Source: Rhizobiales bacterium Ga0077556
Lineage (GTDB): Bacteria > Pseudomonadota > Alphaproteobacteria > Rhizobiales > Phreatobacteraceae
Assembly: GCA_001464235.1 (NCBI GenBank)
Contig: LNFH01000189.1
Span: 1-37,342 of the forward strand
Length of the DNA: 37,342 nt
Reading direction: 5' to 3'
How positions within the stretch are numbered: position 1 is the stretch's first letter; each line of letters opens with the position of its first letter. This document shows, one piece after another, positions 6,947-36,046 of this stretch. The notes under the pieces are model-generated. The model was not told where the DNA came from. It worked only from the letters and a program-made list of their open reading frames with translations, and did not search any database. The position numbers and the translations under genes were made by a program.

Positions 6947-9508
6947 TCAGAACCTCGCCGTCAGCGCGGCGCGGGCGCTGCGGCCGGGGGCCGGCAGGTT
7001 CGCGTTGGAGAGCGGGTCGAGGTAGTAGCGGTCGAACAGGTTGTTGATGTTCACCGTCAGCGTCATGTGCTGGTCGATCTTCCACTCGGCGAAGAGGTCC
7101 ACCACGTGGAAGGCCGGCCAGGGGATCTGGGTGCCCGCGCTGAAGTCGTTCGGGTCGAGGCCGCCGACGCCCGCGACGCTGCCGCTGACGTAGCGATGCC
7201 GCGCCCCCACCGTCAGCGCCTCGTCGAAGAAGCGGGCGCCGACCGTCGTCGTGATCGTGAAGCGCGGCGGCGCCTGGTTGATCATGTAGTCGGTCTGGTA
7301 GGGCGCGTCGGTGCACGGCACGCCGACCCGGCAATAGGCGTAGTTGGTGTAGTAGTTCAGGGCGAGATCGACGAAGTAGCGCCGGGCGTCGTAGCCGCCG
7401 GAGAGCTCGATGCCCTTCATCACCACCTTGTCGATGTTGACCACCTGGTAGGCGTAGTTCCAGGTGGTGCCGACCCGGCCATAGGCCCGTCCCAGATAGT
7501 CGCGGTAGAAGTTGTCGAAATAGGCGAGCTTCACCCTCAGCTTGTCCCCCGGCTGCCAGACGTCGCTGCGCAGATAGTTGGCGCCGATCTCCCAGGTCGA
7601 GGCACGCTCCGGCCGCAGGTTGGGATTGAACAGGAATCCCGAGGAGTTCCAGGTCGATTCCCGGATGCTCGGCGGACGATAGCCGTTGGCGTAGCGGGCG
7701 AAGAGCTGCACGCCCTCCATCGGCGTCAGCGTGATGCCGGCGTTCGGGCTCACCGCATCGCCGCGATAGCCGGTCGAGGCGGGGCGCAGCGTCGTGCCCG
7801 CATAGTTGCTGGTGTCGTCCACCGAGAACCGCATGTACTGGACGCCGGCATGCACCTTCACCCAGGAGAGCGGCGAGAGCTCCGTCTTGCCGAAGGCGCT
7901 CCACTGGTCACGAACACCGGACATCGGAATGTAGCTGCCGTTCGTGCTGGGGAGCCGCGGCGCCACGGCCTCGCGGGCATAGGTGCCGCCGTAGGTCACG
8001 GCGAGGCCGCCGAGCGGGGTCGCGAAGCGGGAGGTGTTGGAGCCGGACAGCCCGACATTGACCGAGCGTGTCGGCCGCTGGATCACCTGGATGCTGTCCG
8101 ACTGCAGCGAGTTCTCGTTGATCGAGACGTAGGAGGAGTTCAGCGACAGGTCGATCAGGTCGTTGCCGCTGGGCTTCCAGTTGTACCGGGCGCTGAGCGT
8201 GTTGGTCTCGATCTCGCTGAGCGGCAGCTGGCGATAGCCGCTGCGGATCGTGTTCGGCATGATCTCGCCGAACTCGTTGGTGTGGCGGATGTAGCTCAGC
8301 CGCAGCTGGTGGCCGTCGCCGAAGCGGACCGTTCCCTTGAGCAGCAGGGTGAGGGCGTTCTCGGAGGTGTTCAGCACCTCCTGCCCCGGCCCGGCGGGCG
8401 ACAGCGCCACCGCCCCGGAGGTCGTGTTGTAGGTCCGTGGACCGTTTGAGCCGGCAAAATAGTTGCCGGACTGGCGCCGCGCGATGGCGCCGACCAGCTC
8501 GAAATTCTCCACCTGATAGGCCGCGGCGAGGCTAGCAGAGCGCGTGCCGCCGATGCCGCCGCCGTCGGTGCGGCCGGTGGTCTGGCCGGGGAGAACGCGG
8601 CTGGTGGAGGACAGGAGGCCGTTCAGCGGATCGAGCGCGTTGGTGCCGAGGCTCCCCTTGAGCTGCACGCCGTAGCTGCGCCCGGGCCGCAGGATGTCGC
8701 TGGCGTTCAGCGTCTCCATGTAGACCGAGCCGCCGATGGCGGTCGGGCCGGCGGTGCCGCCGCCCGGGCCCTTGTTGATGGCGACCCCGGACAGGAGGTC
8801 CGGATCCACATAGACGCGGTTGTCGACGCCGTAATAGCCGCGATAGGTCGAGGTCGACTGCTCCGCGCCGTCGATGGCGGTGGCGACGCGGTTCATGCCC
8901 TGCATGCCGCGGATGTTGACGTCCATGGCCGCGCCGTTGCGGCTGCTGCCGGCGATGACGCCCGGTGTCGAATCGAAGATCTCGCCGCTCGACGTGCCGC
9001 GGAAGCGCTGGATCGTCTCGCCGCCGATGAAGGCGCTGGTCCCCGGCGTCCGGTAGGGCTCGTCGGCGGCGGCGCTGCGGGCACCGGAGACGTCGATCGT
9101 GTCGAGGGCGATGGCGCCCTCCGGCGCCGCTCCCGTCGCCGCGGCGCCGGCGGCCTGCACGGTGACGGTGGTCGCGCCGGCGAAGCGATGGGTCAGCCCG
9201 CTGCCCTGGAGGAGGCGGGCGAGGGCGACGCTCGCGGTCATCGCACCCGAGACGCCGGCCGAGCGCTTGCCCGCCACCACGGCGGGCACATAGGTCACCT
9301 GCAGGCCCGACTGCCGGCCGAAGGCGGCGAGCGCCGCCGACAGCGACCCTGCCGGGATGCTGAAGGCGATCTGCCGCGCCTCCTGGGCGGCGGCGGGGCG
9401 CACCGCCGCCGGCATGGCGAGGCCGATGGCCGTCGTCGTCATCATCATCAGGGCGAGCGCGCCCCTGCCCCGTCTTCCACCGATGACCAATGCGTTGCGC
9501 AGCCTCAT
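6947..9508 (-). CDS. TonB-dependent receptor with N-terminal signalling (STN) domain, heme/siderophore type
   Basis: This 853-residue outer-membrane receptor begins with a long signal peptide ending near AAAQ (about residue 42). Next comes an STN domain (about 48-115: [23 protein letters not shown]), the part that talks to a FecR-type regulator. The plug (about 150-270) holds [25 protein letters not shown], and the barrel ends in the outer-membrane motif LTARF. The barrel contains YRPPSIRES...FNPNLRPE, which resembles the FRAP/NPNL signature of heme receptors, and short HasR-like segments. The His that usually lies between FRAP and NPNL is absent, so a siderophore or another metal complex is also possible. 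The gene lies directly downstream of FecI- and FecR-type genes and upstream of exbB-exbD-tonB. The 115-base gap before it (9509-9623) shows no clear promoter. Confidence 0.9.
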
Positions 9509-9623
9509 GGCCGACCACTCCAGACAGATTGTGGGATGTGGCGATCGATTGGCTGCGGCTAGCGACCCCCGAGGGTGAGACGGGTGGGGCGGCGCGTTTT
9601 TCTCATGGGCGCGCGAAAAAAAA

Positions 9624-10571
9624 TCAGAGGGTCGAGACCACGGTCAGCCACGCGGAAACGTGCCGCACCCGGGCGTCGAAGGGATGGACCACCGCCTCGA
9701 GCGCGGCGAGGGGGCTGCGCAGGTCGAAGACGCCGCTGATCCGCCGCTGCCCGAGCTCGGACCCCGCGAGGATGATGCGGCCCGTGTGCCACCGGCGGAT
9801 CTGGGCGATCACCGCCGCCACCGTCTCGTCCTCGGCCAGCAGCTGGCCGCTGCGCCAGGCGGCGAACTGTCCCGGCAGGAGCCTGCCGCGCTCCACGCGC
9901 CCCGAGCCCTCGTCGAGGCGCAGCCAGTCGCCGGCGGCCAGCCGTCCCGCGCCTGCGGGGAGGCCGGCCCGCGTCGCGGCGAGGGTGCCGCGCTCGACGC
10001 CGACCGAGACGATGCCCGACTCGCGGGAGAGACTGAACGTCGCCTCGCCGCCGCTCACCACGACGTCGCCGACGGCGGCCTCGAAGGGGCGCCCGGGCGC
10101 CCCGGCGCGATCGCAGCAGACGGCGCCGTCCAGCAGGTCGAGCCGTCCCCCGCCCGCCGCCAGGCGGATCGCGCTGGCAGGCCCCAGGGTGACGGACGTG
10201 CCGTCGGGCATCTGGAAGCGCGTCACCTCCGCCGCCGCCGTCATGCGGTCGGCGGTGAGGCGCAGCCAGGCGCCCGGACCGTGCAGTGCCGCTCCGGTGG
10301 CCACCACCAGGCCGGCCATGCCGCCGAGGATCGCCCGTCGCGACGCTCCGCCCTCGCCCGTGAGGGATGAGGACTGGTCGGTCAGCACCTGTCCCGCCAT
10401 GCCGTGCAGCTCCGCCGCCTCCCGCCAGGCCGCATCGTGGGCGGGGCTGCGGGCGCGCCAGTGGCGGATGAGGTCCAGCGTGACCGGATTGGCCGGCGCG
10501 TTCTGCAGCCGGATGACGATGTCGAGCGCCTCCTCGAAGAGCACGTCCTCCGGCGTCGTGTCAGCCGTCAT
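9624..10571 (-). CDS. FecR-type transmembrane regulator (anti-sigma factor)
   Basis: This 315-residue protein would carry the signal from the receptor's STN domain to the ECF sigma factor. The N-terminal cytoplasmic domain (about 8-65, FEEALDIVIRLQ...LDLIRHWRARSPAHDAAW) is the DUF4880 type that binds sigma. A single membrane span follows (ILGGMAGLVVATGAALHG, about 82-99), immediately preceded by twin arginine (ASRRAILGG). FecR proteins of other species are exported by the Tat system, so this placement fits. The periplasmic FecR domain runs from about 125 to 220 (MPDGTSVTLGPASAIRL, LLDGAVCCD), and the C-terminal part holds the receptor-contact region. It sits between the sigma factor and receptor genes, the usual order. 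Confidence 0.9.
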   Translation of the reverse strand: MTADTTPEDVLFEEALDIVIRLQNAPANPVTLDLIRHWRARSPAHDAAWREAAELHGMAGQVLTDQSSSLTGEGGASRRAILGGMAGLVVATGAALHGPGAWLRLTADRMTAAAEVTRFQMPDGTSVTLGPASAIRLAAGGGRLDLLDGAVCCDRAGAPGRPFEAAVGDVVVSGGEATFSLSRESGIVSVGVERGTLAATRAGLPAGAGRLAAGDWLRLDEGSGRVERGRLLPGQFAAWRSGQLLAEDETVAAVIAQIRRWHTGRIILAGSELGQRRISGVFDLRSPLAALEAVVHPFDARVRHVSAWLTVVSTL

Positions 10572-19363: not shown

Positions 19364-20476
19364 TCAGTCCCGCGCCGAGAAGCGGGCCATGAAGCTGCGG
19401 TCTAGCCAGTCCTTCCACAGCCAGACCCAGCGTCCTTCCAGGGCGAGCCAGCGGCCACGCCCGGCTATGGCGCCGCCGTCCCCCGTCGACAGGATGGCGA
19501 GGTAGTTCCGCTGGGCGCGGTAGGGCTCCAGCGGCTCGCCGCGCCCCCGCCGCCGGAGGTTCTCGACGAGCGGCGGTCCCTGTCGCACCGCGAAGACGCC
19601 GGCCTTCTCGCGCCGCTGGCCCTCGATGGCGGCGCAGTCACCGACGGCGAAGATCGCCGGGTCCGAGAGGGACACGAGCGTATCCGCCGTCAGCACCGAT
19701 CCGTCGTCGGCCTGCGCAAGGCCCGTCGTCGCCAGCCAGTCCGGCGCCCGCGCGGCGGTGGAGACGATCACCACGTCGGCGGCGATCCGCCGGCCGTCGG
19801 ATGCGGTCGCGCCGTCGGCGTCCACCGACGCGATGCGGCAGGGCTCGAGCACGGTCACTCCGCGGCGGGCCAGCGCCGCCCGGATGCGCCGGCGCATGCC
19901 GGCGTTGAGGCCGGGCGCCAGCGCCTCGCCGGCGGCGATCCCGATCCAGGGCCGCTGCTCCCGCGCCGCGAAGCGGGTGCGCAGCGCGAGGGCGAGCTCG
20001 ATGCCGGCCGGGCCGCCGCCGACCATCAGGATGCGGCGCGGCGCCTGCGGGCCGTCGAGGAGTGCGTCCAGCCGGTCGAGGAGGCCGCTGATCGGCTTCA
20101 CCGCGAGGGCGTGGACGTCGGCCCCCGCGATGCCCGTGAGGTCCGGCGTGATGCCGACGTCGAGGGAGAGCGTGTCGAAGGCGAGGCATCCGCCGTCGGC
20201 GAGCAGCAGCGCGCGGCCGTCGCGGTCGATGCCGGTGGCCGCGGCGAGGCGGAAGCCGGCGCCGCAGCGGCGGGCGAGGGCCTCGAGGTCGATGTGCATC
20301 GCCTCGCGCCGATAGTGGCCGGCGATGTGCCCGGGCAGCATGCCGGAATAGGGGGTGAGGCGGCGGTCGGTGACGAGGGTCAGCCGCACGCCCGGCTCGG
20401 GCCGGTCGCGGAAGGCGGTGAGCACCTGGACATGGGTATGGCCTCCCCCGACGAGTACGACGTGATGGTCAGCCAC
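19364..20476 (-). CDS. FAD/NAD-dependent oxidoreductase of the SelD-N-terminal family (TIGR03169-like)
   Basis: This 370-residue two-dinucleotide-fold flavoprotein has an FAD motif at the N-terminus (VVLVGGGHTHVQVL, about 6-19) and a second, NAD-type motif (RILMVGGGPAGIELALALR, about 149-167). It also has the ATG-type STAARAPDWL and the FAD-contact IFAVGDCAAIEG. The pieces GGGHTHVQVL and LTPYSGMLPGHIAGHY are typical of proteins that elsewhere are fused to the N-terminus of selenide-water dikinase (SelD). Here the gene stands alone, and no SelD is in view. Its start overlaps the transferase-1 gene by eight bases, so it is the last gene of a four-gene - strand operon. Electron donor and acceptor are unknown. 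Confidence 0.85.
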   Translation of the reverse strand: MADHHVVLVGGGHTHVQVLTAFRDRPEPGVRLTLVTDRRLTPYSGMLPGHIAGHYRREAMHIDLEALARRCGAGFRLAAATGIDRDGRALLLADGGCLAFDTLSLDVGITPDLTGIAGADVHALAVKPISGLLDRLDALLDGPQAPRRILMVGGGPAGIELALALRTRFAAREQRPWIGIAAGEALAPGLNAGMRRRIRAALARRGVTVLEPCRIASVDADGATASDGRRIAADVVIVSTAARAPDWLATTGLAQADDGSVLTADTLVSLSDPAIFAVGDCAAIEGQRREKAGVFAVRQGPPLVENLRRRGRGEPLEPYRAQRNYLAILSTGDGGAIAGRGRWLALEGRWVWLWKDWLDRSFMARFSARD

Positions 20477-21170
20477 CGGCGCCTCCGTCGAGGCGGGCCA
20501 GCGCCGCCCGCGTCGCCGGGGCGGCGCCGGGCTCCGCCGCCAGCGCCTGCCGCAGCCAGGCGAGGTCGCCCGGCTCGTCCACGTCGTGCTGCTCCGGCAG
20601 GAGATGCACGGCGAGGCCGGCGGCCTCCGCCCGGCGCAGCGTCTCTTGGAGCACTCCCGGCGTGCTCCAGGCCATGGGCGCGAAGAGCGGCGCGGCGCGC
20701 GCCGAACGGACGCCGATCAGCCCGTAGCCGCCGTCGGCGCTCGGCATGACGACCACCGTCCGTCCATCGCCGCGCCGGAGGGCCTGCGCCGCAGCGACGA
20801 GGACCTCCGCGGGGACGAGCGGCAGGTCGGCCCCCATCACCATGGCGCCCGCCGGATGACGCGCGAGGAGCCGTGACAGCACGTCCCACATGGTGGCGCC
20901 GAGCTCGCCTCGGTCGCAGAAGACCGGCGGCCAGTCCTGCCCGACGAGGGCTGCGATCTCCTCCTCCGCATCCGCCGGCCGGTAGAAGACCTGGCAGGAG
21001 AGGTCGGCCGGCCCGGCCGCCGCGGCGACGGTGGCCGCCCCGTCCGCGAGGAAGGCGGCTGCGAGCTCGGCTGCCGCCGCCGCACCGATCGCTGCCGCCA
21101 GCCGCGTCTTGGCGATGCCGGGCCGCGGCGGCTTCGCCATCAGCCCGAGGCCGATCGTCTCAGCGCCCAT
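20469..21170 (-). CDS. rSAM/selenodomain-associated transferase 1 (TIGR04282/DUF2064-like)
   Basis: This 233-residue protein has a nucleotidyl/glycosyl-transferase A fold. It begins GLGLMAKPPRPGIAKTRLAAAIG (about 8-30), the phosphate-binding 'K.P..G..KTRL' motif, and continues with AMVMGADLPLVPAEVL (about 128-143), VVVMPSADGGYGLIGV, and MAWSTPGVLQETLRRAEAAG. This family is named for genomic association with radical SAM proteins and SelD-type domains and has been linked to arsenosugar biosynthesis. The sugar and acceptor are unknown. It starts one base after the end of the TVP38 gene. Confidence 0.85.
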   Translation of the reverse strand: MGAETIGLGLMAKPPRPGIAKTRLAAAIGAAAAAELAAAFLADGAATVAAAAGPADLSCQVFYRPADAEEEIAALVGQDWPPVFCDRGELGATMWDVLSRLLARHPAGAMVMGADLPLVPAEVLVAAAQALRRGDGRTVVVMPSADGGYGLIGVRSARAAPLFAPMAWSTPGVLQETLRRAEAAGLAVHLLPEQHDVDEPGDLAWLRQALAAEPGAAPATRAALARLDGGAGG

Positions 21171-21171
21171 G

Positions 21172-21900
21172 TCACCCCGCCTCGCCGCCGTCGCGCCGCT
21201 CCAGCCAGCGCCGCAACGGGATCGCCGCCAGCGAGAGGAGGGCGAGGCCGCCGAGACCGGCGAGAATCTCCGGCGTCAGGATCGACGCCGGGCTGATGGT
21301 GCCGCCCTGGTCGAGAACCGAGCCGAGGCCCGCGCCCGCCAGCGAGAAGACCGCCGTCGCCGGGATGACCCCGACGAAGGTGGTCGCGACATAGGTGGCG
21401 AGCGGCACGCCGACGAAGGCCGGCACCAGGTTGACGAGGAAGAAGGGGAAGAGCGGCACCAGCCTGAGGACCAGCAGGTAGGAGGCGGCGTTGCGGCGGA
21501 TGCCCGCGGCGAGGCGCGCCGCCGGCTGGCCGAACCGGTCGAGGGCGTTGGCGCCGAACAGCGTGCGGGCCAGGAGGAAGACCAGCGTCGCGCCGATGGT
21601 CGCCGCCGTCACGGTCAGCGCCGTGCCGAGCACCGCCCCGAACAGGAAGCCGCCGCCCAGCGTCAGGAACACCGCGCCGGGGACGGAGAAGGCGACCGCC
21701 AGCGTGTAGACCGCGACGAAGGCCGCCGCCGAGAGGACGCCGTTGGCCGCCACCCAGGCGGTGAGGGTTCCGCGGTGGGTCCGTAGCGTCTCCAGCGACA
21801 GATAGTCCGCCACCCCCGACCAGCGCAGGCCGACGAGCACCACCACCGCCGCCAGGGCGATCCAGACGCGCCGGTCCGTTGCGAGAGCGCGGGGCGACAT
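21172..21900 (-). CDS. TVP38/TMEM64 family membrane protein
   Basis: This 242-residue inner-membrane protein of the DedA-related (SNARE-associated) superfamily has about five or six hydrophobic segments. The family core lies in FSVPGAVFLTLGGGFLFGAVLGTALTVT (about 70-97) and LLVLRLVPLFPFFLVNLVPAFVGVPLATYVATTFVGVIPAT (about 140-180), with the conserved 'R..P..P....n......' pattern. It is often encoded beside, or fused to, mercuric-reductase-like flavoproteins, as here where one lies nine bases upstream. The transported species is unknown. Confidence 0.88.
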   Translation of the reverse strand: MSPRALATDRRVWIALAAVVVLVGLRWSGVADYLSLETLRTHRGTLTAWVAANGVLSAAAFVAVYTLAVAFSVPGAVFLTLGGGFLFGAVLGTALTVTAATIGATLVFLLARTLFGANALDRFGQPAARLAAGIRRNAASYLLVLRLVPLFPFFLVNLVPAFVGVPLATYVATTFVGVIPATAVFSLAGAGLGSVLDQGGTISPASILTPEILAGLGGLALLSLAAIPLRRWLERRDGGEAG

Positions 21901-21909
21901 GGGGCCTCC

Positions 21910-23406
21910 TCAGGGGATGATGCGCTGGAGGAAGCCGACCACGGCGCGCGTCGTCGGGCCGAAGAGCTTCGCCGTGAAATGGCTCCCCGCCGCTCGCTTC
22001 GAGGCTTCCGACAGGGTCGGATAGGGCAGGACGAGGCCGGCCACGGCGCCGATCTTCGCGCCGGAGCTGATGGCGAGGGCCCAGAGGCCGATCATCTCGC
22101 CGGCATGGGGGGCGACGATGGTCGCCCCGAGGATGCGGCCCCGCGTGCCGAGGACGATGCGGACGAAGCCCTCGGTGCGCCGCTCCGCCTGCGCCCGGTC
22201 GTTCATCGACAGGGGCGAGGAGAGGACCTCCACCGCGTGGCCCGCCTTGCGCGCCTCCGCTTCGGTCAGGCCGACCTGGGCGAGTTCGGGGTCCGTATAG
22301 GTGACCCGCGGCAGGGCGGCGTAGTTCACCTTCGCCGGCAGCAGGAACAGCGCGTTGCGGATGACGATGCCCGCCTGGTAGCCCGCGACATGGGTGAACT
22401 GCGGCCCGCCGCAGACGTCGCCGATGGCGAAGACGGATCGGTTGCTGGTCCGGAGCCGCGCGTCCACGGTAATGCCCTTGTCGCCCGTGGCGATGCCGGC
22501 TGCCTCGAGGCCGAGGCCCTCGACGTTGGGCCGCCTCCCCGTCGCGACGAGCAGGTGGCTGCCGGAGACCGCCGGCCCGCCGTCGGCGAGCTCGACCGCG
22601 ACGCCGTCCGCGGTGCGCCGGACGGACGCGACCTTGCGGCCCTCCATCAGGGCGACGCCGTCGGCGAGAAGCGCCGCGCGCACCACCGCCACCGCGTCCG
22701 GCTCGTCCCGGCCGAGGATGGCCTGCTGTTCGATCACGGTGACCTGCGATCCCAGCCGGCGGAAGGCCTGCGCCATTTCGACGCCGATGGGCCCCCCGCC
22801 CATGACGACGAGGTGGTCCGGCCGCTGCCGGAGCCCGAAGATCGTCTCGTTGGTGAGAGGGCCGCTCTCCGCGAGCCCCGGCACCGGCGGCACGGATGCG
22901 CGCGAGCCCGTCGCCACCACGAAGCGGCGCGCCCGGATGCGTCGGCCGCCCGCCTCCACCGTGCGGGGGTCGAGAAAGCGTGCCGCCGCCTTGATCACCA
23001 TGACGCCGAGGCCCTCGAAGCGCTCCACGCTGTCGTGCGGTGCGATGGCCGCGATGACGCCGTGGACGTGGTCGTGGACCGTGTCGAAGCGAACCTCCGG
23101 CGCGGGCAAGGTGACGCCGAAGGCCGGGTTTGCGGACGCGGCATGGGCCTTGTGGGCGGCGGCGATCAGCGCCTTCGAGGGCACGCAGCCCGTGTTGAGG
23201 CAGTCGCCGCCCATCTCGCCCTTCTCGATGAGGACGACGGAGGCGCCCATCTGCACCGCGCCCGCCGCAACCGAGAGGCCGGCCGAGCCCGCGCCGATGA
23301 CGCAGATGTCGCAGGAGACGACGTCGCCGTTCTGGGTCGGTCGCCGGGCGGCGGAGGGGGAGGGGGCAGTGTCCATGATCCGTGTGAACCTTTCAGCGTC
23401 CGGCAT
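21910..23406 (-). CDS. Mercuric-reductase/dihydrolipoamide-dehydrogenase-like flavoprotein
   Basis: This 498-residue class I pyridine-nucleotide disulfide oxidoreductase shows the FAD motif CDICVIGAGSAGLSVAAGA (about 32-50), the redox-active pair GGDCLNTGCVPSK (about 66-78), the NAD motif LVVMGGGPIGVEMAQAF (about 202-218), and a dimerisation domain ending LPYPTLSEASKRAAG. In dihydrolipoamide dehydrogenase and glutathione reductase the last motif reads HPT..E with the catalytic His; here that position is Tyr, so the proton-relay chemistry differs. The residues expected for mercury binding at the MerA C-terminus are also absent. ATG 23406 is used because AAGGA is close upstream; ATG 23376 is possible. 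It heads the - strand operon. Confidence 0.88.
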   Translation of the reverse strand: MPDAERFTRIMDTAPSPSAARRPTQNGDVVSCDICVIGAGSAGLSVAAGAVQMGASVVLIEKGEMGGDCLNTGCVPSKALIAAAHKAHAASANPAFGVTLPAPEVRFDTVHDHVHGVIAAIAPHDSVERFEGLGVMVIKAAARFLDPRTVEAGGRRIRARRFVVATGSRASVPPVPGLAESGPLTNETIFGLRQRPDHLVVMGGGPIGVEMAQAFRRLGSQVTVIEQQAILGRDEPDAVAVVRAALLADGVALMEGRKVASVRRTADGVAVELADGGPAVSGSHLLVATGRRPNVEGLGLEAAGIATGDKGITVDARLRTSNRSVFAIGDVCGGPQFTHVAGYQAGIVIRNALFLLPAKVNYAALPRVTYTDPELAQVGLTEAEARKAGHAVEVLSSPLSMNDRAQAERRTEGFVRIVLGTRGRILGATIVAPHAGEMIGLWALAISSGAKIGAVAGLVLPYPTLSEASKRAAGSHFTAKLFGPTTRAVVGFLQRIIP

Positions 23407-23584
23407 GTTTCCTTCGGGCGTCGGGGCGGCCGCGTTTCGCGCCCCTCACACGAAGTTGTCGCCGCCGCCCACCCCGCCGCTTGAATCACCGGTCGCCATC
23501 GTGACACCAAAGGTGGCTCCCCGCGTAACGATTTGCGGCCGGGATGCGAACGGCGACGAAGCGACCCCCACGGAGTGCAGCCTG
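23407..23584. other. Divergent promoter region of the radical SAM cluster
   Basis: These 178 bases separate the two arms of the cluster. I see no ATG start on the + strand and no exact EcfG or sigma-70 pair. GGAG at 23572-23575 is the likely ribosome site of the radical SAM gene. Confidence 0.4.
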
Positions 23585-24536
23585 TTGCAGCAGACCACGC
23601 GAGAGCCCGGCGGCCGGACCATCGGCAAGTTCGAACATCCCGCCGTCACCGCGAAGGGCGAACGGCGCGCCTCCGTGGCGCTGAAGCGGCTCGAGACGGT
23701 GTGGTTCAACACCGGCACGCTCTGCAACATCACCTGCAGCAACTGCTACATCGAGAGTTCGCCGAAGAACGACAAGCTCGCCTATCTGACGCTCGCCGAC
23801 GTGCAGGCCTCGCTCGACGAGATCCGCCGCGACCGCCTGCCGGTGACGCTGATCGGCCTCACCGGCGGCGAGCCCTTCATGAACCCTCAGATCATCGCGA
23901 TCCTCGAGGCGGTGCTGGAGGCGGGCCACGAGACCCTCGTGCTCACCAATGCCATGCGCCCGATGATGCGCCATCGTGCCGCGCTGCTCCGGCTGCGCGA
24001 GGACCATGGCGCCAGGCTGCGCATCCGCGTCTCGCTCGACGACTACCGCGCCGCCGTCCACGACGCCGAGCGCGGCCCCGGCGCCTTTTCGAAGGCGATG
24101 GACGGGCTGCGCTTTCTCTCGCGCGCCGGTTTTCGCGTGGAACTCGCCGGCCGGCGCCTCGCGGCCGATGCCGAGGCGGGTTCGCGCGAGGGCTATCGCC
24201 GCACCCTCGCCGCCGAAGGCGTCACGCTCGACTGGGACGATCCCGTCAGCCTCGTCGTCTTCCCGGAGATGCGCGCCGACGCCGATCCGCCGGAGATCAC
24301 CGAGGCCTGCTGGGGCATCCTCCACAAGAGCCCGGACGACGTCATGTGCGCCTCCGCCCGCATGGTGGTGCGCCGCAAGGGCGCGGCGGGCCTGCACGCT
24401 GATCGCCTACGACCCCGCCTTCGAGCTCGGCGCGACCCTGAAGGAGGCGGCCCGGCCCGTGCCGCTGAACCATCGCTTCTGCGCCACCTTCTGCGTGCTC
24501 GGCGGTGCCGCCTGCGGCGCTGCGGCGCCGGCGTGA
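23585..24536 (+). pseudogene. Radical SAM protein of the rSAM/selenodomain cluster, frame broken near 24395
   Basis: This is a radical S-adenosylmethionine enzyme. The probable start is TTG 23585 with GGAG nine bases upstream; GTG 23501 or 23513 are longer options. The 4Fe-4S motif is C-x3-C-x2-C in NTGTLCNITCSNCYIESSP (about 40-58), followed by IGLTGGEPFMNPQII (the GGEP motif) and RIRVSLDDYRAA. A C-terminal Cys cluster (HRFCATFCVLGGAACG) lies after the break and may hold another cluster. The frame changes at about 24390-24397: upstream MVVRRKGA, downstream CTLIAYDPAFELG. Relatives have about six more residues between these (ending in a hydrophobic 'vvA'), so some 17-20 bases are absent. The stop overlaps the next gene by four bases (GTGA). 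The substrate is not known. Confidence 0.78.
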
Positions 24537-25204
24537 CCGTCGCGGTCGAACGGCGGCGGACGGCCTCCGTCGATCCGCCGGCCTTCAGCGTCGTCGTGCC
24601 GCTGGCGGCGGACGAGCCGCCGCCCGATGACCTGATCGCGCGCCTGCCGGCGGACATGGAGGTGATCCTCGCGCGCGGCGGCACCCGCGCCGAGGCCCTC
24701 AATGCCGGCGCCGCCGCGGCCCGGGGGGCATTTCTCTGGTTCGTCCATGCCGACACGCGCCTGCCCGAGGACGCGGTCGAGGCCCTGCGCGCCGCCGTGC
24801 GGCGAGAGCCCGGCGCGCTCCTCTTCTTCGACCTTTCCTTCGACGGCCCCGCCGTCATGGCGCTGAACGGCGCAGGCGCGCGCCTCCGCTCGCGCCTCCT
24901 GCGCCTGCCCTTCGGCGACCAGGCGCTGTGCATCGAGGCCGCGCTCTTCCGCCGGCTCGGCGGCTATCCCGCCGTGCCGCGCGGCGAGGATCACCTCCTC
25001 GTCTGGCGCGCCCATCGCGCCGGCGTGCCCGTCCGGCCGGTCGGGGCGCGCATCACCACCAGCAGCCGCCGCTACAGCACCCGCGGCTGGGCCCGCACCA
25101 CCGCGCTCCACCTGGCTCTGACCGTCCGCCAGGCCGCGCCGGAACTCCTCCTGAAGCCGGGTGGTATCCGGGGCCGGTTGCCGGCCCACGCGCCCGCAGC
25201 GTAA
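24533..25204 (+). CDS. rSAM/selenodomain-associated transferase 2 (TIGR04283-like glycosyltransferase)
   Basis: This 223-residue family 2-type glycosyltransferase starts at GTG 24533, overlapping the radical SAM stop in GTGA. It contains FSVVVPLAADEPPPDDLI (about 19-36), GGTRAEALNAGAAAARGAFLWFVHADTRLPEDAV (about 53-86; relatives read 'GR..QlN.GA..A.G..LlFLHaDt.lP'), and LPFGDQALCIEAALFRRLGGYPAVPRGEDHLLVWRAHRAG (about 125-164). It ends with RRYSTRGWARTTALHL. The family partners transferase 1 and radical SAM proteins in arsenosugar-type clusters. Base composition is like the neighbours. Confidence 0.88.
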   Translation: MTVAVERRRTASVDPPAFSVVVPLAADEPPPDDLIARLPADMEVILARGGTRAEALNAGAAAARGAFLWFVHADTRLPEDAVEALRAAVRREPGALLFFDLSFDGPAVMALNGAGARLRSRLLRLPFGDQALCIEAALFRRLGGYPAVPRGEDHLLVWRAHRAGVPVRPVGARITTSSRRYSTRGWARTTALHLALTVRQAAPELLLKPGGIRGRLPAHAPAA

Positions 25205-25258: not shown

Positions 25259-27673
<2,415 letters not shown>

Positions 27674-27679
27674 GGCGCC

Positions 27680-29731
<2,052 letters not shown>

Positions 29732-29781
29732 GGGGGGTTCTTAAGGCTCTCGCGGGCAGGGATCTGCACGTTCTGGCGAGC

Positions 29782-29806
29782 AACGCGATGGTCCTGACGG
29801 GGTTCC
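29782..29806 (-). promoter_or_regulatory. EcfG-type promoter of glgX
   Basis: Read on the - strand, GGAAC (29806-29802), 16 bases and CGTT (29785-29782) are an exact EcfG match, about 50 bases upstream of the glgX ATG at 29731. Confidence 0.78.
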
Positions 29807-29848
29807 CCGATCCGGCCGGCGGGCCCGAGACTTTTTTGCAATGCAACA

Positions 29849-29874
29849 GGAACTTCGTCACTCGCCCTGTCGTT
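29849..29874 (+). promoter_or_regulatory. EcfG-type promoter of glgA
   Basis: GGAAC (29849-29853), 17 bases and CGTT (29871-29874) match the consensus exactly, 37 bases before ATG 29912. The predicted start near 29881 leaves too little leader for the alternative TTG at 29891. Confidence 0.8.
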
Positions 29875-29911
29875 GTAGCATCGACCTCCCTTGAATCTCC
29901 GCGAGCGTGCC

Positions 29912-31459
29912 ATGCAGGTCTTCGAGAGCCCTTCTGAAGAGCCTCTGATTGCTGCCGATCCCGCCGTCGTCCCGGAGGCGCCGGCCTCCCCCCAAGATAT
30001 CCCGCGGGAAAGCCCGCAGGCGCCGCCGGCCCTCGGCGGCAAACGGCCGCGCGTGCTCTTCGTCACGCCCGAGATGGGCGACTTCATCAAGGCCGGCGGC
30101 CTCGGCGAGGTCTCCGCCTCACTGCCCCGCCAGCTCACCCGCCTCTGCGACGTCCGCGTGCTCATGCCGGGCTACCGGCAGGTGCGCCGCAAGGGTGGTC
30201 ACATCGACGTGGTCCGCTCCATGCCCGCCTCGGCCGGCCTGCCGGCCTGGTCGCTCGGCCGCCTCACCCGTCCCGACGGCCTCGTCGTCTACGTCGTCCT
30301 CTGCGACGAGCTCTACGACCGCGACGGCTCGCCCTACGGCCCCTACGGCGCCGGCGACTTCGCCGACAACGACGTGCGCTTCGCCCGCCTGTCGCTGGCC
30401 GCGGCGGAGGTCGCCGCCGGCGAGGCCGACCCCAACTGGAAGGCCGACATCCTCCATGCCCACGACTGGCCGGCAGCCCTCGCGCCGCTCTACCTCGCCA
30501 CCCGCGAGGGCCGGGACAAGCCGGCCTCGATCCTGACCATCCACAACCTCGCCTATCAGGGCCTCTACGGCGCCGACCGGCTGCACAGCCTCGGCATTCC
30601 CGACGCCGCCTTCACCTCCGAGGGGGCCGAGTTCTACGGCCAGCTCTCGTTCCTCAAGGCCGGCATCGCCTTCGCCACGCACCTCACCACGGTCAGCGAG
30701 ACCTATGCGCGCGAGATCACCACGCCGGAACACGGCTGCGGGCTCGACGGCATGCTGCGCCGCCGCTACGCCGCGGGCGAGCTCACCGGCATCCTCAACG
30801 GCATCGACGACCGGATGGTCATGCCGCCCGACCAGGCCCTCGACCCGCGCGCGCTGGGCGACTGGAAGCGCGCCAACGCCCGCACGGTACGCAAGATCTT
30901 CGGCCTGACGCCCTCGCGCGGGCCGCTCTTCGCGGTCATCTCCCGCCTCGTCCACCAGAAGGGCGTCGACCTCGCGGTGGAGGCGGCCGAGACCATCATC
31001 GCCGGCGGCGGCCAGCTGGTCGTCACCGGGCGCGGCGAGCCCGATCTCGAGGCGGCGGTGGAGCGCCTCGGCGAGCGTCACCCGGACGCCGTCGGCGTCC
31101 ATATCGGCTTCGACGACGAGGAGGCGCGCCAGGTCTTCGCCGGCAGCGACTTCCTGCTCATGCCCTCCCGCTTCGAGCCCTGCGGCCTCAGCCAGATGTA
31201 TGCGCAGCGCGCCGGCAGCCTGCCCATCGCCTACCGCACCGGCGGCCTCGCCGACACGATCGACGACGGCCGCTCGGGCTTCCTCTTCTCGAGCCTGTCC
31301 TCGTCGAGCCTCGGCGGCGCGGTGAACCGGGCGCTGGGCGCCTATCGCCGCCGCGCCGACCTCATCGCCATGCGCCGCCACGCCATCGCCAAGCGCTTCG
31401 ACTGGACGGGTGCGACGGCGCGCTACGCCACCATCTACTCGCGGGCGCTGGAGGCGTGA
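29912..31459 (+). CDS. glgA: Glycogen synthase (ADP-glucose type, GT5)
   Basis: This 515-residue GT5 glucosyltransferase extends alpha-1,4 glucan from ADP-glucose. The start ATG 29912 fits the promoter position; a TTG seven codons earlier is in frame but lacks a ribosome site. A Pro-rich N-terminal extension of about 45 residues is unusual for the family. The core begins RPRVLFVTPEMGDFIKAGGLGEVSASLP, where Lys about 60 of the K-x-G-G-L motif binds ADP-glucose. Further motifs are DILHAHDWPAALAPLYL, TIHNLAYQGLY, LTGILNGID, and the GT-B C-terminal SRLVHQKGVDL and MPSRFEPCGLSQMYAQRAGSLPIAYRTGGLADTI. No glgC is in view. Confidence 0.95.
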   Translation: MQVFESPSEEPLIAADPAVVPEAPASPQDIPRESPQAPPALGGKRPRVLFVTPEMGDFIKAGGLGEVSASLPRQLTRLCDVRVLMPGYRQVRRKGGHIDVVRSMPASAGLPAWSLGRLTRPDGLVVYVVLCDELYDRDGSPYGPYGAGDFADNDVRFARLSLAAAEVAAGEADPNWKADILHAHDWPAALAPLYLATREGRDKPASILTIHNLAYQGLYGADRLHSLGIPDAAFTSEGAEFYGQLSFLKAGIAFATHLTTVSETYAREITTPEHGCGLDGMLRRRYAAGELTGILNGIDDRMVMPPDQALDPRALGDWKRANARTVRKIFGLTPSRGPLFAVISRLVHQKGVDLAVEAAETIIAGGGQLVVTGRGEPDLEAAVERLGERHPDAVGVHIGFDDEEARQVFAGSDFLLMPSRFEPCGLSQMYAQRAGSLPIAYRTGGLADTIDDGRSGFLFSSLSSSSLGGAVNRALGAYRRRADLIAMRRHAIAKRFDWTGATARYATIYSRALEA

Positions 31460-31478
31460 CGGCCCTGGCAGGTCCGGC

Positions 31479-31739
31479 TCACGGCTCCTCCCGCTTGCGC
31501 CGTCCCGCGGCCTTGCCCGGCACGGCGGGAGCCTTGTCGGTCTTGGCGGCGGCCTTCGGCGCCCGCGCCTTCGAGGCCGGCTTTGACGGCGAGGCGGGGC
31601 TCGCCGCTTCCGGGGCCAGCCCCGGCGCGGCCGTCAGCTCCCGCTCCGCCGTCGCCCAGTGGACCTCGGCCCGCCCCGACGGGCGGCCTTCCGCCTCCCA
31701 GATCTCATAGGCTCGTTTCTCGATCATCATGCGCGACAT
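31479..31739 (-). CDS. DUF2934 small protein
   Basis: This 86-residue protein starts at ATG 31739 with AGGAGG six bases upstream. The N-terminal half (MIEKRAYEIWEAEGRPSGRAEVHWATAEREL, about 5-35) is a textbook DUF2934 domain of unknown function. The second half is a low-complexity Ala/Pro/Lys-rich tail (SKPASKARAPKAAAKTDKAP) ending in basic residues, which suggests nucleic-acid or membrane contact. It lies between glgA and glgB on the opposite strand. I found no EcfG promoter in the 81 bases upstream. Confidence 0.85.
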   Translation of the reverse strand: MSRMMIEKRAYEIWEAEGRPSGRAEVHWATAERELTAAPGLAPEAASPASPSKPASKARAPKAAAKTDKAPAVPGKAAGRRKREEP

Positions 31740-31820
31740 CCGCCGCCTCCTCTTCCGTTTCGCCGCGCCGCCGCCCATGGGGGCGGCCCGGCGCTCATGT
31801 GATGACGTGGAGCGGCTCAC

Positions 31821-34017
31821 GTGGTGATCCGCCGCTCCACCCCGCGCGCCAGCGAGACCGTGTCCGCGCCCGGAACCAGCCTGCCGCCGGGCGTGGTGAA
31901 CGCCCTCATCGCCGGCACCCACGGGGATCCCTTCTCCGTCCTCGGCCCCCACCGGGAGGGGACGGGCCTGCGCATCCGCCAGGCCCTGCCCGGCGCCTAT
32001 TATGCGGAAGTCGAGCCCGCGGGCGGTGGTCCCACGACACCGCTCGCCGAAACGTCACCGGGCTTTTTCGAGGTGCTCCTGCCCGAGCCGATCGATTACC
32101 GCCTCGTCGTACACTGGGCGGGGGCGGTGCAGCGCACCGTCGATCCCTACGGGCTGCCGGCCATGCTCTCCAGCGACGACCTCCACTGGTTCGCCGAGGG
32201 CCGCCACCGCGACCTCGCCAAGCGGATGGGCGCGGTGCCCTGCCGGCATGCGGGCCACGAGGGCGTCGGCTTCGCCGTCTGGGCCCCCAATGCGCGCGCC
32301 GTCTCCGTCGTCGGGGACTTCAACGGCTGGAACCCGGCCCGCCACCCCATGCGACGGCGCTGGGAGGCGGGGGTCTGGGAGCTGTTCATCCCGGGGCTGG
32401 CGCCGGGCGCGGTCTACAAGTTCGCCATCACCGGCCCCTCCGGCGAGCGCCTGCCCTGGAAGGCCGACCCGCTGGCGCGGCGCACCGAGCTGCCGCCCCG
32501 CACCGCCTCCATCGTCGCCGCGCCGCCGCGCTTCACCTGGACCGACGGCGACTGGATGGCGGCCCGCGCCGAGGCCGACGACAGCCGCCGCCCGATGTCG
32601 ATCTACGAGGTCCATGTCGGCTCATGGCTGCGCAGCCATGACGGCCACGAGGGCAGCTGGGCCGAGGCGGCCGACCGGCTGATCCCCTATGTGCAGCATC
32701 TCGGCTTCACCCATGTCGAGCTGATGCCGATCACCGAATATCCCTTCGGCGGCTCCTGGGGCTACCAGCCCCTGTCGCTCTTCGCGCCCACCGCCCGGCT
32801 CGGCGATCCCGCCGACCTCGCCCGCTTCATCGACCGCTGCCATGCCGCCGGCATCGGCGTCATCCTCGACTGGGTGCCCTCGCATTTTCCCGGCGACGCC
32901 CATGGCCTCGCCCGCTTCGACGGCACCGCGCTCTACGAACACGAGGACCCGCGCGAGGGCTATCACCCCGACTGGAACACGATGATCTACAACCTGGGGC
33001 GCCGCGAGGTCCGCGGCTTCCTCATGGCCTCGGCGCTCTGGTGGATCCGCACCTTCCACCTCGACGGCCTGCGGCGACTACAGCCGCCAGCCCGGCGAGT
33101 GGATCCCCAACGTCCATGGCGGCCGGGAGAACCTCGAGGCCGTCTCCTTCCTGCGCGAGCTGAACGACCTCATCGACGCGGAGGGGGATGGCGCCGTCGT
33201 CATCGCCGAGGAATCGACCGCCTGGCCGGGCGTCACCGCCCCCACCGACGAGGACGGGCTCGGCTTCCACTTCAAGTGGAACATGGGCTGGATGCACGAC
33301 ACGCTGCGCTATTTCGGACGCGACCCGATCCACCGCGGCCACCACCCGAACGACCTGACCTTCGGCCTCGTCTATGCCCATTCCGAGCACTACGTGCTGC
33401 CGATCTCCCATGACGAGGTCGTCCACGGGAAGGGCTCGCTCATCGCCCGCATGCCCGGCGACGACTGGCAGCGCTTCGCCAATCTCCGCCTCCTCCTCGG
33501 CTGGATGTGGGCCCATCCGGGCAAGAAGCTCCTGTTCATGGGCTGCGAGTTCGGCGCCGAGGCCGAGTGGAACGCCGATGCGCCCTTCCCCTGGCCGGCG
33601 GAGGACGCCGTCCTGCCGCGCGGCACGATGCAGTTCCTCGCCGATCTCAACCGCGTCTATCGCGACATTCCGGCCCTCCATCGCCGCGACCGCGAGGCGG
33701 ACGGCTTCCGCTGGATCATCGCCGACGACCGGGACAACCAGGTCTTCGCCTTCTTCCGCAGCGACGGCACCGACGAGGTGCTCGTCATCGCCAACATGAC
33801 TCCCGTGCCGCGCATGGCCTATCGCGTCGGCGTCCGGCAGGCTGGCTTCTGGCGGGAGGTGGTCAACAGCGACGCGGCGGCCTATGGCGGCTCCGGCCTC
33901 GGCAATGGCGGCGGCGTCGAGGCCGGCCCCGAAGCGTCTCACGGCGAGCCCTTCTCCCTCAGCCTCACTTTGCCGCCGCTCGGCATCCTCATCCTGAAGC
34001 CGGAAGGACGCGGCTGA
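31821..34017 (+). pseudogene. glgB: 1,4-alpha-glucan branching enzyme GlgB, frame broken near 33074
   Basis: This is a GH13 branching enzyme, read from GTG 31821 with GGAG about ten bases upstream. A first N-terminal domain (about 25-120) and a CBM48 domain (VGFAVWAPNARAVSVVGDFNGWN) lead into the catalytic barrel: SIYEVHVGSW, EYPFGGSWGYQ, and DWVPSHFP (region I). After the break come [23 protein letters not shown] (acid Glu) and [14 protein letters not shown] (region IV), then the C-terminal beta domain to TGA 34015-34017. The break falls after FHLDGLR. Branching enzymes read about ten residues here (VDAVASMLYR in a typical case), so about 29 bases are missing, including the codon of the catalytic nucleophile Asp. 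As read, no active enzyme could be made. malQ follows after one base. Confidence 0.88.
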
Positions 34018-34018
34018 C

Positions 34019-36046
34019 ATGCATGACGACGACCTTCGCGACCTCGCCCGGCGTTCGGGTATCGCGCTCGACTGGCGGGACCAGCGCGGCGAGACCCGGC
34101 CCGTCTCCATCGACACGCTGAGGGCCATCCTCGCCGCCATGGACGTGTCGCCCGAACAGGCCGCCGGCGCCGGTCCCGCGGCCCGTGATTACCCACTGCT
34201 GACGACCCGCGTGGGGCGGCAGATCTTTCTCGCCGGCGCGGGTTTCTCCGGCGACGGGCTCGAGATCGAGGACGAGCAGGGCACGGCCGCGGCCGTGGCG
34301 CTCTCCTGGGACGCCTCCGGGCCCGTCATGGAGGCCCCCGCGACGCCCGGTTACTACCGGCTGCACCAGGCCGGCCGCACGGTGACCCTGGCGGTCGCGC
34401 CGGCACGCGGCCCCACCATCGCCGAGCGGCTCGGCGGCCGGGGCTGGGCCCTCGCCGCGCAGATCTACGCGCTGCGCTCGCGCCATGACGGCGGCATCGG
34501 CAATTTCGGCGGCGTCGCCGCGCTGGGAACCGCGGCCGGGGAGCGCGGCGCCGACGCGGTCGCCGTCAGCCCCACCCATGCCCTGTTCGGCGCGGCGCCG
34601 GGGCACTTCAGCCCCTATTCGCCCTCCACCCGCCTCTTCGCCAACCCGCTCCATGCCGATCCGATCCTCGTCCTCGGCGCCGAGGCGGTCGAGGCGGCTA
34701 TCCGCGAGGCGGGCATCGCCGCCGCCATGGAGACGCTGGAACGGGCTCCCGCCGTGTCGTGGGAGGCGGCGACGCCGGTCCGGCAGGTCCTCCTCGACCA
34801 CCTGCACCGGCGGCTCGTCGCATCGGGCGGTCCGCTCGCCGCCGACTTCGCCGCCTATCGTGCCGCCGCGCCGCAGGCCCTGATCGACCACGCCACCTTC
34901 GAGGTGCTGCACGGCGCCATGCTGCGCCAGGACCCCGGCCGCTGGCACTGGCGCACCTGGCCCGAGGCTTTCGCCGACGCCGCCTCCCCGGGGGTCCAGG
35001 CGTTCCGGCAGGAGCATGCCGAGGCCGTCGACCGGCAGGTCTTCGCGCAATGGCTCGCCGAGCGCTCGCAGCAGGCGGCCCAGGCCCGCTGCCGCGAGGC
35101 CGGCATGCGCATCGGCATCATCGCCGACCTCGCCATCGGCGTGGAGGGCGCGGGCAGCCAGTGCTGGAGCCGCCCGGCCGACATGCTCACCGGGCTCGGC
35201 ATCGGCGCGCCGCCGGACTACTACGCCGCCGAGGGGCAGAACTGGGGCCTGACCACCTTCTCGCCGACGGGCCTCGCCCGCAGCGGCTTTGCCGGCTTCA
35301 TCGCCATGCTCCGGGCGAGCCTCGCCCATGTCGGCGGCCTGCGCATCGACCACGTCATGGGCTTCGACCGCCTCTGGATGGTGCCCGAAGGGGCCTCCGC
35401 CACCGAGGGCGCCTATCTCGCCATGCCGTCGGAGGACCTGTTCTGCCTCACCGCGCTCGAGGCCCTGCGCCACCGGGCGGTGGTCATCGGCGAGGATCTC
35501 GGCACGCTGCCCCACGGCTATCGCGAGAAGCTGCAGGCGGAGGGCATCGCCGGCATGCGCGTGCTGCGCTTCGAGCGTGACGACCATGGCCATCGCCACC
35601 CGTCCAACTGGGATGCCGACGCCATCGCCATGACCTCCACCCACGACATGATCGCCACCGCCGGTTGGTGGCGCGGCGCCGACCTCGACCCCGGCGACAC
35701 GGCGGGGCAGGGCGCGCGCGCCTGGGACCGCGGTCTCTTCTGGGGATCGGCGCAGGAGGCGGGTCTCGTCTCGGGCGAACGCCCGGCACCCGACGCGCCG
35801 GACGCCGTCGTCGATGCCGCCGTCGCCTATGTGGGCGGAACGCCCTCGGCCCTCGCGGTCATCGCGGTTGAGGACGTCCTCGGCCTCGACGTCCAGCCGA
35901 ACGTGCCGGGCACCACCGCCGAGAAACCGAACTGGCGCCACCGCCTTCCGGGCCCGGCGGCGAGACTGCTCGACGATCCCGGCGCCGGACGGCGCATCCG
36001 GCTCCTCAGGGAGCGGCGCGGGTCACGCCCGCTCGATGCTCCATAG
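34019..36046 (+). CDS. malQ: 4-alpha-glucanotransferase (amylomaltase)
   Basis: This 675-residue GH77 enzyme moves maltodextrin segments between chains and recycles short oligosaccharides from debranching. ATG 34019 is one base after the glgB stop, so it is probably co-translated. The N-terminal 120 residues are a beta domain typical of the longer MalQ forms. The barrel shows YALRSRHDGGIGNFG, SPYSPSTRLFANPLHADP, IIADLAIGVEGAGSQCWS, GLRIDHVMGFDRLWMVP (nucleophile Asp about 444), VVIGEDLGTLPHGYREKL (acid Glu) and TSTHDMIATAGWWRG. Its last 24 bases overlap the convergent treZ gene. Confidence 0.95.
   Translation: MHDDDLRDLARRSGIALDWRDQRGETRPVSIDTLRAILAAMDVSPEQAAGAGPAARDYPLLTTRVGRQIFLAGAGFSGDGLEIEDEQGTAAAVALSWDASGPVMEAPATPGYYRLHQAGRTVTLAVAPARGPTIAERLGGRGWALAAQIYALRSRHDGGIGNFGGVAALGTAAGERGADAVAVSPTHALFGAAPGHFSPYSPSTRLFANPLHADPILVLGAEAVEAAIREAGIAAAMETLERAPAVSWEAATPVRQVLLDHLHRRLVASGGPLAADFAAYRAAAPQALIDHATFEVLHGAMLRQDPGRWHWRTWPEAFADAASPGVQAFRQEHAEAVDRQVFAQWLAERSQQAAQARCREAGMRIGIIADLAIGVEGAGSQCWSRPADMLTGLGIGAPPDYYAAEGQNWGLTTFSPTGLARSGFAGFIAMLRASLAHVGGLRIDHVMGFDRLWMVPEGASATEGAYLAMPSEDLFCLTALEALRHRAVVIGEDLGTLPHGYREKLQAEGIAGMRVLRFERDDHGHRHPSNWDADAIAMTSTHDMIATAGWWRGADLDPGDTAGQGARAWDRGLFWGSAQEAGLVSGERPAPDAPDAVVDAAVAYVGGTPSALAVIAVEDVLGLDVQPNVPGTTAEKPNWRHRLPGPAARLLDDPGAGRRIRLLRERRGSRPLDAP

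Follow-up and report, generated by a model that had tools for sequence, protein, structure and literature searches.

In the early steps of arsenosugar synthesis SsArsS, a radical S-adenosylmethionine (radical SAM) enzyme, acts with the arsenic methylase SsArsM, as described in the available passages of PMC8552651, and adenosylation of arsenic by a radical SAM enzyme is reported in the available part of PMC12159101. For hopanoid synthesis, excerpts of PMC12583986 propose a logic of two steps, adenosylation by the radical SAM enzyme HpnH and then removal of adenine by the phosphorylase HpnG. Here we describe a locus of six genes in a stretch of 37,342 nucleotides (the window) from Rhizobiales bacterium Ga0077556, contig LNFH01000189.1 of assembly GCA_001464235.1. 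The genome is a draft of 4.4 Mb in 483 contigs, 89% complete, and the window is its contig 189. A radical SAM gene at 23525..24536, whose family we call window-type, is accompanied in this locus by two transferase genes, GT1 of family TIGR04282 and GT2 of the TIGR04283 type. Genome comparison gives good support for a real and recurrent association of this uncharacterised radical SAM family with the two transferases, an association in which it appears to take the position of ArsS. The core of three genes may constitute an alphaproteobacterial version of an arsenosugar-type pathway, a reading to which we give an even chance. The original prediction, made from the window alone, had seen an incompletely described pathway, possibly for a sugar-linked metalloid or a modified nucleoside with membrane export; the gene association lends support to such a pathway, while neither the modified nucleoside nor a link to selenium found any.

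Co-inheritance of the radical SAM gene with two transferase families

The families were followed in 150 genomes of the order and 299 genomes of the phylum, some genomes being in both samples. Window-type radical SAM genes occur in 62 of the order genomes at E ≤ 1e-10, the main matches having at least 47% identity and one, in G141, being a fragment. TIGR04282 is found in 57 of these 62 carriers versus 7 of the 88 other genomes (Fisher 2e-27), a count that uses 64 of 65 genomes because a weak match in G021 (44 bits) was left out; the matches in G074 and G114 are fragments. The corresponding figures for TIGR04283 are 55/62 versus 5/88 (Fisher 4e-27), with only matches over the cut-off counted (60 of 136 genomes), by which the window's own genus is left out. 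When labels were shuffled within families, the observed overlap with the radical SAM gene was reached in 5 of 20,000 shuffles for TIGR04282 and in 0 of 20,000 for TIGR04283; therefore family membership alone is insufficient to explain the overlap. Seven of the 12 mismatches between radical SAM and TIGR04282 fall in genomes less than 90% complete. Within the window genus the trio is complete in three of five genomes and none of the three genes is present in the remaining two.

In the phylum sample (thresholds E ≤ 1e-15 for TIGR04282, 1e-30 for ArsS and 1e-40 for window-type radical SAM including a sister group) the three families were detected in 146, 114 and 22 genomes, respectively. All 22 radical SAM carriers possess TIGR04282 and none possesses ArsS. 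TIGR04282 goes together with ArsS in 102 genomes, and a further 22 genomes have TIGR04282 with neither ArsS nor the window-type enzyme. No order genome (0/150) has ArsS over the cut-off.

Physical linkage was counted by tblastn. A scan of genome contigs returned at least 561 relatives of the radical SAM gene among 596 matched stretches; the loci named here are the best 80 of these by similarity, not a random draw, and contain near-copies. Near the radical SAM gene there is GT1 in 17 of the 80 loci, TIGR04283-type GT2 in 16 (omitting three matches of 48-54 bits to dolichol-phosphate-type enzymes in L120, L125 and L143), a MerA-like gene in 15, TVP38 in 14, a metallophosphatase in 13, DUF547 in 10, PhnD in 6, MTAP in 4 and TIGR03169 in 2. 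A purely arithmetical estimate for a gene present once per 3.5-Mb genome puts chance linkage at ~0.4 of 80. In four loci (L124, L126, L132 and L147) the three core genes are co-directional in the order radical SAM-GT2-GT1 and abut or overlap one another, and the overlap between radical SAM and GT2 is common to this arrangement and the window. Two loci, one in Caulobacter sp. HMWF025 (L147) and one on plasmid p546-1 of Roseomonas haemaphysalidis (L178), unite all six families of the window by similarity. For the plasmid proteins the TIGR04282 score exceeds its cut-off, while TIGR03169 (214 bits) and TIGR04283 (165 bits) are the top matches and fall short of theirs. The window-type gene there has no annotation beyond radical SAM protein, and after it come genes of the PhnD, PhnE and ATPase types as well as one for a metallophosphoesterase. 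Directly before the window-type gene stands a second radical SAM gene (L178 12595-13974), nearest to TrsS at 100 bits (cut-off 490).

Other radical SAM genes are met beside these transferases as well. A PA0069-family gene (NF033668, 535 bits in L052) adjoins GT2-GT1 in 14 of 20 loci of the order (L052-L071, one of the 20 being a radical SAM locus); the neighbours look like housekeeping genes by eye and we take the arrangement as inherited gene order. In Aromatoleum a single predicted mobile island carries both a TIGR04282 gene and one annotated as moaA, according to the passages available from PMC8801600.

Identity of the radical SAM family

The window protein is a member of the radical SAM superfamily by PF04055 (57 bits, gathering cut-off 29.5) and by its CX3CX2C motif, which is invariant in an alignment of 53 relatives (53 of 76 sequences were used) together with six further cysteines; a full-length intact protein is found only in the relatives, not in the window. 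Judged by its sequence it is not ArsS. It scores 68.3 bits on the ArsS model TIGR04167, for which the cut-off is 300, and its best NCBIfam match, NF049973 (the Rv1681 family), gives 93.4 bits with a cut-off of 380. The full-length relative on L178 passes no NCBIfam cut-off among the matches listed.

The alignment of ArsS with the window-type enzyme is confined to the core (columns 43-227 of 333), and the profile match of ArsS ends before the C-terminus of the window type. The ArsS-type C-terminus (MCR, DCDFNQ, HCxGC...GSxCGG; six members) is absent from the window type, which has HxxC..FCVLGG..C instead. The sister group, from five genomes outside the class, matches at 180-198 bits with a full-length alignment (E 1.3e-58). 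ArsS is set apart with 100/100 support in a tree built from 36 sequences. The alphaproteobacterial radical SAM proteins were not recovered as one side of a branch in this tree (3 changes, 0% of bootstrap trees) but meet the sister group and the Rv1681 pair at an unresolved fork, so that only ArsS is cleanly apart. The predicted fold (predicted local distance difference test, 89.6; predicted template modelling score, 0.89) has its best Foldseek matches in BlsE, SkfB, SuiB and EpeE (E 5.9e-11 to 6.5e-8), all of them partial with a template modelling score of ~0.5 and 10-20% identity. A search of solved structures with the radical SAM protein gave weak matches to the core only.

The Rv1681 family provides a third radical SAM enzyme beside a TIGR04282 transferase. 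It was found at 497 bits (cut-off 380) in L168 7125-12182, and also in L169, with Rv1679- and Rv1680-like genes that score below their own cut-offs. The genomes concerned, G334 and G351, belong to the 22 mentioned above with neither ArsS nor the window-type enzyme.

Nearly all of the best 80 of the at least 561 window-type relatives carry the label Alphaproteobacteria, Nitrococcus mobilis being one exception. Two contigs labelled Klebsiella pneumoniae (a metagenome-assembled genome) and Enemella evansiae (L146 and L148) are likely to be mislabelled or contaminated because their radical SAM genes look alphaproteobacterial. L038 encodes, in one frame of 644 residues (7926-9857), a fusion of the radical SAM protein with a calcineurin-like phosphoesterase, and L039 and L106 are similar by BLAST.

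Arsenic, nucleoside phosphorylases and a proposed route

Although no ArsM was found in the window genome, relatives link the window-type gene to ArsM and to nucleoside phosphorylases. At E ≤ 1e-30 (27 of the 38 order genomes matched at 1e-20) ArsM is present in 26/62 carriers versus 1/88 others (Fisher 4e-11), and the lone ArsM genome without the window-type gene, G049, has both TIGR04282 and TIGR04283. An arsenosugar-type ArsM (536 bits, cut-off 400) lies directly upstream of the radical SAM gene in G053. Seven of the 80 loci include ArsM in their stretch, with L073/L076 and L100/L128 looking like near-copies. A nucleoside phosphorylase is encoded near the window-type gene in four of the 80 (L085, L090, L144 and L147), beside the sister radical SAM gene in L152 and in two of seven ArsS stretches (L160 and L164), and a PF01048 phosphorylase adjoins TIGR04282 in L168/L169 (G334, G351).

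The association of genes is what we observe, and the chemical steps that follow we infer from it. Because nucleoside phosphorylases recur near the radical SAM and TIGR04282 genes, and in view of the literature on ArsS and hopanoids, we propose a sequence of adenosylation, phosphorolysis, nucleotidylation and transfer. The radical SAM enzyme would transfer 5'-deoxyadenosyl to an acceptor, X, for which a trivalent (methyl)arsenical, either made by ArsM or taken up, is the most likely candidate; arsenic is thus the substrate that we infer for the enzyme, and uptake of methylated arsenicals would explain the carriers without ArsM. A phosphorylase of the MTAP/PNP type would then remove adenine to leave 5-X-5-deoxyribose 1-phosphate, the CofC-like TIGR04282 enzyme would activate this product as a nucleotide sugar, and TIGR04283 would move the ribosyl unit onto an acceptor, for example glycerol. 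Keeping thiols or X reduced may fall to the MerA-like flavoprotein together with TIGR03169, and TVP38 may act at the membrane.

A number of observations weigh against this interpretation. Five radical SAM carriers lack TIGR04282, and seven genomes have TIGR04282 without the window-type enzyme. In the order the genes are mostly unlinked, GT1 lying within 4 of 20 radical SAM stretches and GT2 within 3, and ArsM and MTAP are found in none of these 20 loci by tblastn. The conservation of the neighbourhood by which the original prediction was to be judged holds in part, with all six families together in HMWF025 and on p546-1. The alignment with ArsS is limited to the core. ArsS and the window-type enzyme both follow taxonomy: none of the 114 ArsS genomes of the phylum sample belongs to the window's class, and since the two split by class their mutual exclusion may partly reflect history, which limits its independence as evidence. 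The link between ArsM and the radical SAM gene is weak within families (shuffles reach it in 458 of 20,000), 36 of the 62 carriers are without ArsM, and no ArsM was detected in any of the five sampled genomes of the window genus. In the window genome itself NF008823 gave no match at E ≤ 1e-20, nor did a query with an arsenosugar-type ArsM at 1e-15. The wide stretches cover 21 of the 62 order carriers, chosen by eye for spread of identity and long contigs, and that of G053 was picked since an ArsM match had already been placed nearby. MTAP is a common housekeeping family, and the phosphorylase of L085 passes an ordinary MTAP cut-off. Lastly, the radical SAM frame of the window is itself broken, as discussed below.

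The carriers lacking ArsM, the window genus among them, are what one would expect if the three core genes formed one pathway with an acceptor other than arsenic, such as a phosphorus, sulfur or selenium species or a carbon acceptor, ArsM being a mere frequent companion. A PhnD-type binding protein, of the phosphate/phosphite/phosphonate family, near the radical SAM gene in 6/80 loci and 2/20 order loci points the same way; these six loci and the seven with ArsM do not overlap among the 80, though the numbers are small. We nevertheless consider this rather unlikely in view of the near confinement of ArsM to radical SAM genomes (26 of 27, the exception still having both transferases) and of the arsenosugar-type ArsM adjoining the radical SAM gene in G053. 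It is improbable, in our estimate, that the enzyme makes no adduct at all and instead modifies a sugar, lipid or peptide in whose synthesis the two transferases take part, for example by dehydrogenation, decarboxylation or epimerisation. The nearest folds do modify a sugar nucleoside or peptides, and some clusters contain polyprenol-sugar-type glycosyltransferases (GTC in 5/80 and DPM-like in 4/80 loci), but the fold matches are only partial and distant, and the position of the enzyme in place of ArsS and the mutual exclusion of the two, together with the recurring nucleoside phosphorylases, are better accommodated by adenosylation.

A further explanation concerns the window only and is compatible with the arsenosugar-type pathway proposed here. 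In the assembly the radical SAM gene falls into two frames, the 5' part running to ~24389 and the C-terminus continuing in another frame to a stop at 24536. Alignment with G019, a genome of the same genus in one contig, reveals a single gap of 14 bases with similar flanking sequence; the break moves the last four of the six additional invariant cysteines into the other frame. The gap may be a mutation or an assembly error, and this copy may be dead or misassembled. Given the broken frame and the lack of an ArsM match, present activity of the pathway in the window genome is doubtful. It is possible, at somewhat less than an even chance, that the pathway is decaying in this genome, the radical SAM gene being a fresh pseudogene and the locus a remnant, and the lack of the whole trio in G065 and G132 of the same genus would agree with this. 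However, neither flank of the gap has diverged far from G019 and the C-terminal frame remains open, therefore any decay would have to be very recent, and an assembly error in a draft genome fits equally well.

Returning to the arsenosugar-type pathway, we tentatively suggest a wider generalisation: across Alphaproteobacteria the bond between carbon and arsenic (or another metalloid) in ribosides would be made by a second radical SAM family that is no ArsS orthologue. Adenosylation and phosphorolysis, with TIGR04282 then nucleotidylating and TIGR04283 transferring the product, would form a general adenosyl-to-ribosyl route serving at least three radical SAM families (ArsS, window-type and Rv1681). 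No alternative to ArsS was found in searches of the open-licence literature, most subscription papers lying outside that search. If the window-type enzyme is the counterpart of ArsS, the rule that no ArsS means no arsenosugars would be wrong for many Alphaproteobacteria, and ideas on arsenosugar origins would need revision. The pairing of phosphorylase and TIGR04282 also suggests assayable roles for the two transferase families, in steps that the available passages of the literature do not spell out.

The window locus and its described counterparts

The placement of six genes in two divergent arms, as originally predicted, is borne out by open reading frames and family profile scans, with five of the six genes intact; what does not hold is a single open radical SAM frame. 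Overlaps of 4 to 8 bases had been noted and are confirmed, 8 between the TIGR03169 and TIGR04282 genes and 4 between GT2 and the stop codon of the radical SAM gene. Of the two transferase assignments, that of GT1 passes its family cut-off, while GT2 has TIGR04283 as its sole match and stays below. GT1 has a relative in the Protein Data Bank, the putative nucleotide-diphospho-sugar transferase 3cgx (E 1.1e-14); GT2 has no match among solved structures at E ≤ 1. In the alignment GT2 lacks ~20 residues after the GG[ST] loop, and this short form is common to the window genus, Rhabdaerophilum and a Methylobacterium metagenome-assembled genome (L072 14383-15159; L074 13313).

Table 1. Features of the six-gene locus, in window coordinates
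Feature	Position	Strand	Evidence
TIGR03169 flavoprotein, SelD-N-terminal type, stand-alone, no SelD part	19364..20476	-	394.4 bits, cut-off 310
GT1, TIGR04282 CofC-like transferase	20469..21170	-	138.7 bits, cut-off 134
TVP38/TMEM64 (VTT domain) membrane protein	21172..21900	-	PF09335, 64.5 bits
MerA-like NAD(P)H/FAD disulfide oxidoreductase	21910..23406	-	MerA model 393.6 bits, below cut-off 454
Divergent intergenic stretch between arms; radical SAM start codon uncertain	23407..23524	.	reading frames
Radical SAM, 5' part: CX3CX2C and first two of six extra invariant cysteines	23525..24389	+	PF04055, 57 bits
Radical SAM, C-terminal part in other frame; last four of six invariant cysteines	24390..24536	+	frames, alignment with G019
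GT2, TIGR04283-like transferase, short form	24533..25204	+	140.7 bits, below cut-off 182; sole NCBIfam match

The idea of the six genes as one obligate unit had to be abandoned. Whereas G019 has all six, G101 of the same genus has four, with no MerA-like or TVP38 gene found within its 19-kb stretch, G132 retains only MerA-like-TVP38-TIGR03169 without the trio, and G065 has the TIGR03169 gene only. By this comparison and the counts in the order, radical SAM, TIGR04282 and TIGR04283 are the co-inherited core, and the MerA-like and TVP38 genes, with or without TIGR03169, form a separable module. Beside the sister radical SAM gene of L155 the TVP38 (VTT) and MerA-like proteins are fused into one of 733 residues (8074-10272), and L153 is similar by eye.

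The flavoprotein described as mercuric-reductase-like is indeed a flavin adenine dinucleotide (FAD) disulfide oxidoreductase resembling MerA. A role in mercury reduction was rejected since the MerA cut-off is missed and the C-terminal cysteine pair, a feature of MerA, is lacking: the cysteines are at 32, 35, 69, 74 and 332 only, with none after 332 of 498 residues. A selenium pathway is without support, TIGR03169 not being clearly coupled to the window-type gene in the order sample (Fisher p = 0.064) and SelD in the window genome giving a best match of 66.7 bits (cut-off 125). The absence of ArsM and SelD noted for the window thus extends to the genome as searched. In G142 TIGR03169 and SelD share one open frame (C1:512049-514133), in keeping with the name of the family, whereas the window gene is free-standing. 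Downstream of the locus, window positions 25259-36046 hold a glycogen run in which glycogen phosphorylase, GlgX and 4-alpha-glucanotransferase were identified.

Compared with described systems, BlsE, SkfB, SuiB and EpeE resemble the window-type enzyme in predicted fold and differ in their substrates and, largely, in sequence. True members of the Rv1681 family also lie near TIGR04282 and a PF01048 phosphorylase (G334, G351) but stand beside Rv1679- and Rv1680-like genes, and the window enzyme is far under their cut-off. HpnH and HpnG offer the proposed adenosylation followed by removal of adenine, yet with another acceptor, and the window enzyme scores only 32.7 bits on HpnH (cut-off 225), which makes this an analogy and not membership. 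The ArsS-type arsenosugar clusters employ a different radical SAM enzyme, separate in the tree and alignable with that of the window over the core, while they contain the same two transferase families. Genes for ArsM and for MerA-like and MTAP-like proteins are recurrent neighbours in either kind of cluster.

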